A stretch of 64,000 bases of DNA from Opitutia bacterium. GTDB lineage: Bacteria > Verrucomicrobiota > Verrucomicrobiia > Opitutales > Opitutaceae. Where the stretch lies: assembly GCA_947472765.1 (NCBI GenBank), contig CANJCM010000008.1, forward strand, positions 31,156-95,155, written 5' to 3'. Of the stretch, positions 35,419 to 41,815 are shown piece after piece (position 1 is the stretch's first letter; each line of letters opens with the position of its first letter). The translations under genes and the position numbers were made by a program. A model generated the notes under the pieces. The model saw only the letters and a list, made by a program, of their open reading frames with translations, did not search any database and was not told the origin of the DNA.

Positions 35419-35757
35419 ATGAAACTCATCACTGCCATCATCAAGCCGTTCAAACTGGAAGAAGTGAAAGAGGCCCTCGCCGCCGCGGGCATCGAAGGCA
35501 TGACGGTGACGGAAGTGAAGGGCTTCGGACGCCAGAAGGGACACACCGAGATTTATCGGGGCAGCGAATACACCGTGGATTTCCTGCCGAAGGTGAAGGT
35601 CGAGATCGCCGTGGGCGACGAGGTCGCGGCCAAGGCGATCGACGCGATCGCGAAGGCGGCCAAGACCGGGAAGATTGGCGACGGAAAGATTTTCGTGATT
35701 CCGCTCGAGGAAGTGGTCCGGATTCGGACGGACGAGCGCGGCGAGTCGGCCGTCTGA
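35419..35757 (+). CDS. glnK: P-II family nitrogen regulatory protein (copy 1)
   Basis: [65 protein letters not shown]... Confidence 0.95.
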
Positions 35758-35878
35758 TTTTCGCGGCCGGCCGCGACGAAACCGGCGTTACGGCCGGCCG
35801 CAATCGATCCGAACTCCGGGCGCGAGTTGGGTTGATTGTATACAGTGGATCGGTGTGCGGCTCCGATCGGATGAGGCA

Positions 35879-35896
35879 TTGGCATGGGTGTTGCTG
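35879..35896 (+). promoter_or_regulatory. Putative sigma54 (-24/-12) promoter upstream of amtB copy 1
   Basis: ttGGcatgggtgttGCtg; GG and GC separated by exactly 10 nt; close to TGGCACG-N4-TTGCT. Confidence 0.6.
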
Positions 35897-35969
35897 AAGT
35901 GCGGCAGCGCATGGGTGTCCTGTGAACCCGTGCGTTCGGCCCGCCCTCAACCACAAATCCTATTCGCGC

Positions 35970-37505
35970 ATGATCTGTTCACGCTTCCGCCGCCCGAAGT
36001 TCCTGACGTTCCTGGCAATGTTCGCCGGGCTCAGCTTTGGGTCTCTCTTCGCCCAAACTCCGCCCCCGGCCGCGCCGCCGCCGCCCGCTCCCTCGCTGGA
36101 ACAGCGAATCGCCGGTTTGGAGGCGTATCTCTCCAACGGCGATCCAACTGCTTCGCTCAAGACCGCGAAGGACAAGGATGGCAACGCGTCGATTCCTGAA
36201 GGTCTCACCTCGCCGGCCGTCGGCGTGGCTGGTCCGGGCCACAATGCCTGGATGATGACCTCGTCTGCGCTCGTGCTCTTCATGACGCTGCCCGGTCTGG
36301 CACTCTTCTACGGCGGCCTGGTTCGCACGAAGAACGTTCTCTCGGTCATGGCCCAGTGTCTGGGCATCGCCGGCCTCGTGACGATTCTCTGGTGGGCCTT
36401 CGGCTACAGCCTGATTTTTGGCAAAAGCTTCAACAGTCCCTTCCTCGGAGGCTCGGAGTACTTCTTCCTGGCAGGAGTCGATAGCGCACCAAACACGGAC
36501 TACTCGTACTGGGTTTCGCACAATGTGTTTTCGATGTACCAGCTCATGTTCGCGATTATCACCCCGGCGCTCATCGTCGGTGCCATTGCCGAGCGCATGA
36601 AGTTCTCCGCGCTGATGCTGTTCGTCACCGTCTGGATGTTCGTCGTCTACTTCCCGCTCGCCCACATGGTTTGGGGAATTAACGGCTTCATGAACGGCGT
36701 CTGGAACGCCGGAGCCACCATCAAGGCGGTCGACTTCGCCGGCGGCACCGTAGTTCACATGTCCTCCGGTTGGTCCGCGCTGATTCTCTGTATCCTGATC
36801 GGCCCCCGGCTCGGCTTCGGCAAGACACCGATGCCCCCGCACAGCATGGTGCTCTGTATGATCGGCACCGGCATGCTCTGGGTCGGCTGGTACGGCTTCA
36901 ACGCCGGTTCGGCGGCCGCCGCCGACGGGGTGGCGGCAAACGCCTTCACCACCACGACGCTCGCGACAGCCGTCGCCTCCTTCAGCTGGGCCGCGCTCGA
37001 GTACCTGACCCGCCGCAAGGCGAGCGTGCTGGGCTTCTGCTCCGGCGCCGTGGCTGGTCTCGTGGTCGTGACTCCCGCCTGCGGTTTCATCACCCCGGCG
37101 CTGTCCATCCCGCTCGGTATCCTTGCTGGCGCGGTGCCGTTCTTCGCCTGCACCAAGCTGAAGGCCGCGCTGAAGTATGACGATGCGCTCGACACCTTCG
37201 GCGTCCACGCTGTCGGTGGCACCATGGGTGCGCTGCTCACCGGCTTCTTTGCCCGTAACTCGGTCAACGCGAATCTCGCGACCAACCTCAAGGATCAGGT
37301 CACCGACAGCTTCGGCCAGGGCCTCGTGATGGAGCAAATCAAGGCCATCGTGCTGACGCTGGTGCTCGCGGTGGTTTCAACCGTGGTCATCGCCTTCATC
37401 GTGAAGGCCGTCGTCGGACTCCGCCCCACGGCGGAAGGCGAGCAGGAGGGCTTGGACCTCACTGACCATGGCGAAGAGGGTTACATCTACGAAGGAAAGT
37501 CCTGA
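35970..37505 (+). CDS. amtB: Ammonium transporter AmtB (copy 1) with N-terminal signal peptide and extension
   Basis: ORF 35922..37505; likely start [72 protein letters not shown]. Confidence 0.95.
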
Positions 37506-37536
37506 GTACCTCCAACCCTCAAATTATCCTACCTAC

Positions 37537-37875
37537 ATGAAACTCATCATCGCGATCATCAAGCCGTTCAAACTCGAGGAAGTTAAGGAGGCGCTCGCCG
37601 CCGCCGGCATCGAGGGAATGACGGTTACCGAGGTCAAGGGATTCGGCCGTCAGAAGGGCCATACCGAGATCTACCGTGGCAGCGAGTACACCGTGGACTT
37701 CCTGCCGAAAGTGAAGCTCGAGGTCGCCGTGTCCGACGAAACCGCCGGCAAGGCCGTCGACACGATCACCAAGGCCGCCAAGACCGGCAAAATCGGCGAC
37801 GGCAAGGTCTTCGTCCTTCCGCTCGACGAGGTTGTCCGCATCCGGACCGACGAGCGCGGCGAGTCCGCCGTCTGA
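37537..37875 (+). CDS. glnK: P-II family nitrogen regulatory protein (copy 2)
   Basis: Start ATG 37537, 31 bp after amtB1 stop; T-loop identical to copies 1 and 3. Confidence 0.95.
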
Positions 37876-37912
37876 TTCACATCCAATAATCTGCCGAGTA
37901 ATCGGCGCATCC

Positions 37913-39619: not shown

Positions 39620-39637
39620 CCCACATCCAGCACTCCT

Positions 39638-39976
39638 ATGAAACTCATCATCGCGATCATCAAGCCGTTCAAACTCGAGGAAGTTAAGGAGGCGCTCGCG
39701 GCCGCCGGCATCGAGGGAATGACGGTTACCGAGGTCAAGGGATTCGGCCGTCAGAAGGGCCACACCGAGATCTATCGTGGCAGCGAATACACCGTGGACT
39801 TCCTGCCCAAGGTGAAGCTCGAGGTGGCCGTGGCCGACGAGGCCGCCGGCAAGGCCGTCGAGGCGATCACGAAGGCGGCCAAGACCGGTAAAATCGGCGA
39901 CGGCAAAGTCTTCGTTCTGCCGCTCGACGAGGTCGTCCGCATCCGGACCGACGAGCGCGGCGAGACCGCCCTCTAA
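39638..39976 (+). CDS. glnK: P-II family nitrogen regulatory protein (copy 3)
   Basis: 112 aa; 18 bp after amtB2 stop; nearly identical nucleotide 5' half to copy 2. Confidence 0.95.
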
Positions 39977-40000
39977 GGCGTCGAATCACCCGCAATTCCC

Positions 40001-40034
40001 AGCCGGCCCTTTCACGAGGGCCGGCTGTTTTGCT
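40001..40034 (+). terminator. Rho-independent terminator after glnK copy 3
   Basis: agccggccctttcacgagggccggctgtttt. Confidence 0.85.
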
Positions 40035-40259
40035 TGGCGGTCTTCGCAACATTTTGAACAGGTCGATCGGGAAGGAGCTGTTTGAGCCTGAAGCGATGAA
40101 GCCGGGAGACGCTTTGTTCCGGCTCGAGCGGGGACCTTCGATCGGCGGTATTGAGAGTTCCCCTCTTGGAGAGGGGTGCCCGAAGGGTGGGGTGTGTGGA
40201 TCGGGTCCTTGAATTTGGTTGGCTCAAATTGCCCGGGTTTCCCGTCATAGCTTCAACCC

Positions 40260-40276
40260 CGGCATCAATCGTGCTC
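40260..40276 (+). promoter_or_regulatory. Putative sigma54 (-24/-12) promoter upstream of amtB copy 3
   Basis: cGGcatcaatcgtGCtca; GG-N10-GC, alignable with the element before amtB copy 2. Confidence 0.55.
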
Positions 40277-41815
40277 ATGTCTGACATGAAACCCATGACT
40301 TTCACCCGGCCCAACCCCCTCGCGTACCTCGCACTGGTCCTTGCTTTGCTCAACCCGCTCGCGGTTTGGGCTCAGGCTCCGGCCACGCCGGCTGCGACCG
40401 CCGCCACTCCGGTTCCGACTTTGGAACAGCGAATCGCCGGGATTGAGGCCTACCTCGCGAACGGAGATCCGTCCGCTTCGCTGAAGAATGCCGAAGGCGC
40501 CGTACCCGCCGGTTTGACTTCACCCGCCGTCGGCATCGCGGGCCCGGGCCATAATGGTTGGATCATGACCTGCGCCGCGCTGGTGCTGTTCATGACACTG
40601 CCTGGGCTCGCGCTTTTCTATGGCGGCCTCGTGCGGACCAAGAATGTGCTCTCCGTGATGGCCCAGTGTCTCGGCATCGCGGGCGTGGTCACGATTCTCT
40701 GGTGGGCCTTCGGCTACAGCCTGGTTTTCGGCAAGAGTTTCAACAGCGTTTATCTCGGCGGGTCCGAGTTCTTCTTCCTGAATGGCGTCACGAGTGCGCC
40801 GAACACGGACTATGCCTACTGGGTGTCGCAGAATGTGTTTTCGATGTACCAGCTGATGTTCGCGATCATCACTCCCGCGCTCATCGTGGGCGCCATCGCG
40901 GAGCGGATGAAGTTTACCGCCCTGATCGCGTTCGTCGTGGTGTGGATGTTCGTCGTCTACTTTCCGCTCGCGCACATGGTCTGGGGATCGACCGGCTTGA
41001 TGAACGGCGTCTGGAACGCCGGGGCCGCGATCAAGGCCGTGGATTTTGCCGGCGGCACCGTGGTCCACATGTCGTCGGGCTGGTCCGCGCTTGTCCTGTG
41101 CCTGATTGTCGGCCCCCGGCTGGGCTTCGGTCGCACTCCGATGCCTCCGCACAGCCTCGTGCTCTGCATGATCGGCACCGGGATGCTTTGGGTTGGTTGG
41201 TACGGTTTCAATGCGGGCTCGGCAGTCGCGGCTGACGGCGTGTCCGCCAATGCGTTCACGACCACCACCCTCGCGACCGGCGTCGCGTCCTTCACCTGGG
41301 CCGCCCTCGAATATCTCGCGCGCTGCAAGGCCAGCGTGCTCGGCTTCTGCTCCGGGGCCGTCGCGGGACTCGTCGTCGTGACGCCCGCCTGCGGCTTCAT
41401 CACGCCGCAGCTCGCGATTCCGCTCGGTGTGCTCGCCGGGGCGATCCCGTTCTTCGCCTGCACGAAGCTGAAGGGGTGGCTCAAGTACGACGACGCCCTC
41501 GACACCTTCGGCGTCCACGCCGTCGGCGGCACGCTCGGCGCGTTGCTCACGGGCCTGTTTGCCCGGCACGAAGCCAATGGAAATCTTGCCCTCAACCTGA
41601 AGGCCCAGATCACGGGCTCGATGTCGCAGCCGCTCGTGGTCGAACAGCTCAAGGCCATCGCGCTCACGCTTGGACTCTCGGTCTTCGCCACGGTCATCAT
41701 CGCGTTCCTGATCAAGGCCGCCATCGGGCTGCGTCCCACCGTGGAAGCGGAGCAGGAGGGCCTCGACCTCAGCGACCACGGCGAGGAAGGCTACATCCTC
41801 GAGGGGAAGTCCTGA
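40277..41815 (+). CDS. amtB: Ammonium transporter AmtB (copy 3)
   Basis: Likely start MSDMKPMTFTRPNPLAYLALVLALLNPLAVWAQ (40277, or Met 40286/40295). [49 protein letters not shown]. Confidence 0.94.
   Translation: MSDMKPMTFTRPNPLAYLALVLALLNPLAVWAQAPATPAATAATPVPTLEQRIAGIEAYLANGDPSASLKNAEGAVPAGLTSPAVGIAGPGHNGWIMTCAALVLFMTLPGLALFYGGLVRTKNVLSVMAQCLGIAGVVTILWWAFGYSLVFGKSFNSVYLGGSEFFFLNGVTSAPNTDYAYWVSQNVFSMYQLMFAIITPALIVGAIAERMKFTALIAFVVVWMFVVYFPLAHMVWGSTGLMNGVWNAGAAIKAVDFAGGTVVHMSSGWSALVLCLIVGPRLGFGRTPMPPHSLVLCMIGTGMLWVGWYGFNAGSAVAADGVSANAFTTTTLATGVASFTWAALEYLARCKASVLGFCSGAVAGLVVVTPACGFITPQLAIPLGVLAGAIPFFACTKLKGWLKYDDALDTFGVHAVGGTLGALLTGLFARHEANGNLALNLKAQITGSMSQPLVVEQLKAIALTLGLSVFATVIIAFLIKAAIGLRPTVEAEQEGLDLSDHGEEGYILEGKS

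Follow-up and report, generated by a model that had tools for sequence, protein, structure and literature searches.

Alternating glnK and amtB genes in an Opitutia bacterium suggest a multi-slot ammonium locus with recombining channel cores

The window, the whole of a 64,000-nucleotide stretch of DNA from an uncultured Opitutia bacterium of the family Opitutaceae, carries six intact genes on the + strand between positions 35419 and 41815, in the order glnK1–amtB1–glnK2–amtB2–glnK3–amtB3. Judging from sequence, these genes probably constitute a multi-slot locus for ammonium uptake and sensing, with units switched by RpoN, a shared P-II pool and channel cores that recombine. Few bacterial gene pairs are as conserved as glnK–amtB, which is viewed as a matched couple of sensor and channel; here, channel bodies down to 33% identity appear to have been exchanged while promoter, signal peptide and sensor stayed the same. 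Such replacement would make GlnK–AmtB specificity, and the reason for having several Amts, directly testable and, if true, would be a clear bacterial example of modularity between promoter and signal peptide on the one hand and protein body on the other.

Gene content and transcription units

The features of the array are the following.

35419..35757, + strand: glnK1, a P-II gene (Pfam P-II, 119.9 bits), with no sigma-54-like site in its upstream region (p=0.27 against shuffles)
35879..35895, + strand: sigma-54-like promoter of amtB1, type X (TTGGCATGGGTGTTGCT; also given as TGGCATGGGTGTTGCT), score 15.9, equalled by 0 of 1000 shuffles
35970..37505, + strand: amtB1, an X-type leader (...LFAQTP), Pro/Ala linker and beta-type core (Pfam, 368.7 bits; Amt tree)
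37537..37875, + strand: glnK2 (Pfam, 118.7 bits), 94% identical to glnK3 at the DNA level, within the limits of the coding sequence
37913..37950, + strand: intrinsic terminator after glnK2, a 12-bp stem (hairpin 37913–37942) followed by a T-run
38137..38152, + strand: sigma-54-like promoter of amtB2, type Y (CGGCATCGATTTTGCT), score 12.0, p=0.018
38168..39619, + strand: amtB2, whole gene, leader and alpha-type core
38168..38266, + strand: amtB2 leader, a Y-type signal peptide and the start of the Pro/Ala linker, without clear homology to the L025_A2 leader
38267..39619, + strand: amtB2 alpha-type core, with 83.5% DNA identity to L025 from 38267 on; alpha clade, 100/100 in the core tree
39638..39976, + strand: glnK3 (Pfam, 117.8 bits), sister to glnK2 in the GlnK tree (100/99)
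40000..40031, + strand: intrinsic terminator after glnK3, a 12-bp stem (hairpin 40000–40027) plus T4
40260..40275, + strand: sigma-54-like promoter of amtB3, Y-like (CGGCATCAATCGTGCT), score 9.6, p=0.068 alone
40286..41815, + strand: amtB3, leader MKPMTFTRP...VWAQAP and beta-type core (Pfam, 363.8 bits), in a core clade shared with amtB1 (96/95)

The starts of the amtB genes (35970, 38168 and 40286) were our choice, based on promoter positions and signal peptides, and the p values compare each site's score with shuffles of that gene's own intergenic region. The three AmtBs match the Ammonium_transp profile over its full length (364–387 bits, positions 1/2–399 of 399) and the three GlnKs match the P-II domain at 118–120 bits, which confirms the alternation on one strand that had been described in an earlier note on this DNA. 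The Amt motifs said there to be conserved were likewise found in AmtB1, AmtB2 and AmtB3, as pore motifs together with the GlnK-facing C-terminus (GLDxxxHGExxY). AmtB2 can be aligned with solved AmtB, and the sequences are similar enough to solved AmtB and GlnK to place both folds beyond doubt. The three AmtBs are predicted to be transporting ammonium channels of the Amt/AmtB family, and the sensors are assigned to the GlnK class by their genetic linkage to amt. The same genome (4.97 Mb in 157 contigs) encodes a fourth pair, amtB4–glnK4, on a separate contig (C58), one weak P-II-like match on C20, rpoN (PF04552, E 1.3e-57) and glnD. REP-like repeats at 38040 and 41889 bracket amtB2–glnK3–amtB3; they were considered as marks of transposition and dropped, since about 204 copies genome-wide make such repeats ordinary here.

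The two strongest terminator-like hairpins of the region are those 3' of glnK2 and glnK3. A hairpin scan of the region found none at the amtB1/glnK2 and amtB2/glnK3 junctions, and 3' of glnK1 there is just a weak 5-pair hairpin (35738–35753) that overlaps the gene end; amtB3 has no glnK downstream. The -24/-12 element GG-N10-GC is present before amtB1 and amtB2 and weak before amtB3. With sigma-54-like sites before each amtB and not before glnK1, and terminators after glnK2 and glnK3, the proposed split into amtB-glnK units is supported. When relatives are included with the window, sites at p<0.05 are found in 51 of 67 amtB upstream regions, compared to 5 of 37 for glnK; a sigma-70 scan of the array region returned zero sites. 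This arrangement points to what is probably one sigma-54-independent glnK (glnK1) and three nitrogen-inducible units, and the descending site scores (15.9, 12.0 and 9.6) make a graded system possible.

The X pattern occurs a single time in the 4.97 Mb genome, before amtB1, and this promoter type also lies upstream of other slot-X amtBs in the genus. Genus-wide it was found in 56 places, 18 of them counted upstream of an array amtB, with no genome-wide enrichment over the reversed control. The Y pattern has only two sites in the window, each before an amtB, a count that is partly circular because both patterns were derived from these same sequences. One relative, G139, has a third amtB in decay, and the -12 element of that gene is mutated too (TTTTACT).

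Sensors and channels

As had been noted earlier, AmtB1 and AmtB3 are closer to each other (76.6% identity) than either is to AmtB2 (61.0% and 59.2%, respectively). In the Amt tree, AmtB2 belongs to an old alpha clade (98/99) that is present in other genera too, and AmtB1 and AmtB3 fall among genus sequences as beta, inside a 30-member set (96/87) that includes gamma. Delta cores, at 33% identity, occur in the arrays of other relatives. In every amtB the core is preceded by a signal peptide and then a Pro/Ala-rich linker.

GlnK1, GlnK2 and GlnK3 differ at 15 positions, none of which lies in the T-loop. Over T-loop residues 37–55 the genome's four GlnKs do not differ at all, and across the genus 52 of 53 GlnKs share this sequence; Q39, R47 and Y51 are kept in 78 of 78 GlnKs. 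The similarity of glnK2 and glnK3 begins and ends at the bounds of the coding sequence, and their dS is 0.21 [0.11–0.35], as against 0.94–1.33 among the amtBs; under simple tandem duplication, both genes of a unit would be expected to have diverged to the same extent. The resulting ratio, approximately 0.2 to about a quarter, is below every ortholog control, where glnK dS varies too (0.37–1.65 times amtB dS). A parallel pattern is seen in G119 (L049), with Amts that are 34% identical and GlnKs that are 95.5% identical. Gene conversion, or repeated exchange of channels between kept sensors, accounts for the dS contrast; co-duplication does not. Since the four T-loops are identical and glnK2 and glnK3 are homogenised, the sensors look interchangeable, which makes a single, common P-II pool more likely than three private pairs and weakens the earlier suggestion of three local pairs. 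GlnK heterotrimers are plausible by analogy with the E. coli GlnB/GlnK heterotrimers cited in PMC5448240.

Leaders, cores and breakpoints

Each amtB can be separated into a leader, comprising promoter and signal peptide, and a core, the channel body. X leaders combine a TTGGCAY promoter with an MxCSRxRR...LFAQTP-like signal peptide, whereas in Y leaders a CGGCATCGATTYTGCTCATG promoter is joined to an MNxLRLxPLR...SAFAQ-like one. The two parts do not coincide: X leaders are joined to beta cores (window_A1, L015_A2, L016_A2, L017_A1, L041_A1), to alpha cores (L018_A1, L024_A2, L025_A2 and others) and to a delta core (L022_A1), and Y leaders are found on beta cores and, in the window, also on the alpha core of amtB2. 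The seven remaining members of the amtB2 core clade (100/100) are all X-leadered; leaders are short, and the Y assignment of amtB2 depends mainly on a 21-nt stretch, containing its promoter, that is identical to the L015_A3 site. Mapped on the core tree, leader types require six changes, at least four of them forced by starred branches. Where both types are present in one array, X precedes Y in 7 of 7 arrays, a count that does not amount to a probability because the genomes are related. In the leader BLAST comparisons with 280-nt queries, some hits to query positions 1–90, probably the tails of preceding glnK genes, were not counted as matches between leaders. These patterns suggest that leaders and cores have separate histories, the X/Y order being kept as cores were exchanged beneath it.

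Sharp breakpoints are seen in one pair of relatives, at the Pro/Ala linker and at the exact glnK start. Between L018 (G161) and L022 (G150), promoter and signal peptide are 95–100% identical (93.6% across 280 nt of promoter plus signal peptide), identity drops to about 50% in the core, alpha in one and delta in the other, and it returns to 90–100% exactly at the start of glnK; the L022 sequence extends no further than approximately 0.4 kb upstream of its promoter. L024 and L032 differ by the clean gain or loss of an additional amtB, situated between glnK1 and the X slot. In the window, homology of amtB2 to its closest core relative, L025_A2, runs from 38267, in the linker, through glnK3. The core of amtB1 is 92% identical to that of its closest core relative, L021_A2, with leaders that align poorly and promoters that are both of type X.

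Proposed mechanism and alternatives

In the mechanism that we propose, glnK1 would be made without sigma-54 and serve as a general P-II, and RpoN (sigma-54) would turn on the three units amtB1-glnK2, amtB2-glnK3 and amtB3 under nitrogen limitation. With identical T-loops, the GlnKs would form a single interchangeable pool, probably heterotrimeric, able to plug any of the three channels once ammonium is available again, subject to control by GlnD through uridylylation of Tyr51. The plugging of AmtB by the P-II T-loop is known from the complex described in PMC10433425. Over evolutionary time, the slots, defined by promoter and signal peptide, would hold their order within the genus, channel cores would be swapped as cassettes bounded by the Pro/Ala linker on one side and glnK on the other, and glnK copies would be homogenised, with recombination through glnK as the mechanism of exchange. 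The sequence itself shows the gene content, the promoter motifs, the identity of the T-loops, the homogenisation of glnK, the disagreement of leaders with cores and, in one pair of relatives, the sharp breakpoints. What we infer is nitrogen control, plugging and heterotrimers, all three from the protein families (PMC10433425, PMC5448240), together with the shared pool and recombination through glnK. The reading of the locus as a naturally occurring cassette-exchange system, with ordered nitrogen-responsive slots, recombination at the linker and at a conversion-maintained glnK, and a common P-II pool, we judge to be about evenly poised between right and wrong.

A simple tandem duplication, in which the copies of an amtB-glnK unit are now diverging as three private transporter-sensor pairs, would fit the regular 2.1-kb repeat spacing and the relatedness of the AmtB1 and AmtB3 cores (96/95). 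It is nevertheless unlikely, given that glnK2–glnK3 dS reaches about a quarter of the value for the neighbouring amtBs, with identity confined to the coding sequence, that AmtB2 derives from an older clade common to other genera, and that leaders and cores disagree; identical T-loops further oppose private pairs. No likelier is an array serving gene dosage, in which copies raise the amounts of Amt and GlnK, the channels are functionally equal and the evolution is unremarkable: each copy retains all key Amt and P-II motifs, but the core differences, 23–41% within the window and up to 67% in relatives' arrays, exceed what dosage needs, and the promoters differ by slot.

The mismatches between leaders and cores could themselves be artefacts of MAG assembly or reflect convergence of short signal peptides, given that the relatives are drafts and that such peptides are information-poor. 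This we regard as very improbable, as X leaders recur on alpha cores in seven genomes (G161, G166, G162, G104, G159, G151 and G081) and on beta cores in the window and four others (G165, G169, G155 and G153), and L018 and L022 match at 93.6% over 280 nt of promoter plus signal peptide.

Relation to known systems and distribution

The proteobacterial glnK-amtB operon, as in E. coli, is under sigma-54/nitrogen control and usually consists of a single pair with glnK first; an order with amtB in front is known from elsewhere. The array resembles the E. coli operon in its P-II/AmtB plugging family, as inferred here from T-loop identity, and in putative sigma-54/nitrogen control, and differs from it in that three amtB and three glnK alternate, the units are amtB-first and glnK1 stands apart.

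Multiple amt–glnK pairs are already known from Archaeoglobus, Haloferax and Scalindua. Archaeoglobus fulgidus has three amt-glnK operons (PMC3198391) and Haloferax mediterranei two amt-glnK pairs (PMC3831643), and in both, as here, each of several Amts shares a transcription unit with a glnK of its own. The A. fulgidus GlnKs are functionally different, since GlnK2 is unable to bind 2-oxoglutarate (PMC3198391), whereas in the window the T-loops are identical, glnK2 and glnK3 are homogenised and the promoters are of sigma-54 type. According to the available part of PMC3655542, the anammox bacterium Candidatus Scalindua profunda has an amtB/glnK cluster with four amtB and two glnK, similar in containing several amtB and more than one glnK; an alternating array with fixed leaders and core exchange is not described in that part. 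A search of the literature open without subscription found no description of Opitutaceae arrays or of slot-and-cassette core exchange.

The genus was sampled with 27 genomes, 24 of which contain Amt; most relatives are draft MAGs, so that array counts are lower bounds. At least two amtB per cluster are present in at least 13 of these 24 genomes, and three amtB in at least four. With K for glnK and A for amtB, the arrays read KAKAKAK (G169), KAKAKA (G165 and the window), KAKAK (G155, G161, G158 and G054), KAAKA with a broken final A (G139), KAAK (G162), KAAK plus a K fragment (G166), KAKA, cut (G168), and AKAK (G006 and G150). Related arrays exist in other genera, for example AKAKKAK in G035, and most Verrucomicrobiales records have KA or A. 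The feature is thus recurrent and variable in the clade. The earlier note had named an array fixed across the whole clade as grounds for abandoning its claim; in the genus, the array recurs without being fixed. As for the surroundings, an upstream esterase-like gene and an apparent lpxD start are common to the window and G166 only, and a divergent transporter gene is shared with G004, from another genus.

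The third amtB in the array of one relative (G139, locus L021, 1651-2862) is interrupted by a stop/frameshift, and its promoter, of the Y leader/promoter type, has a mutated -12 GC; together, the gene and its promoter represent a decaying slot of the array. At locus L025 of another relative, G166, the array is followed by a fragment of a third glnK (215-373). Genomes of the genus encode, in addition to the array GlnKs, further, more divergent P-II proteins with scores of 52-72 bits (for example, G158:C18:398520 and G169:C97:24682), and the genome of the window has only a weak match, on contig C20.

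Near-perfect sigma-54-like sites (TTGGCACCGNCGTTGCT), paired approximately 6.5 kb apart, are present outside the amt array in several genomes of the genus, where they perhaps mark another nitrogen locus:

G161:C3, 1553782 and 1560345
G150:C72, 15231 and 21796
G160:C529, 5647 and 12170

The window itself contains the following additional features:

33974-35290, minus strand: CitMHS_2 (NhaD-like) transporter, divergent, upstream of glnK1
38040-38068: REP-like palindromic repeat GTCGTCCCGCTGCTCACNCAGCGGG, copy 1
41889-41917: same repeat, copy 2
54835-55264: cluster of three tRNA genes
60673-60746: one further tRNA gene

The REP-like repeat occurs in about 204 copies across the whole genome (two or fewer mismatches allowed), and its reversed control in none. 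A CitMHS_2 (NhaD-like) transporter also adjoins an amt array in G004 (L052), a member of another genus.
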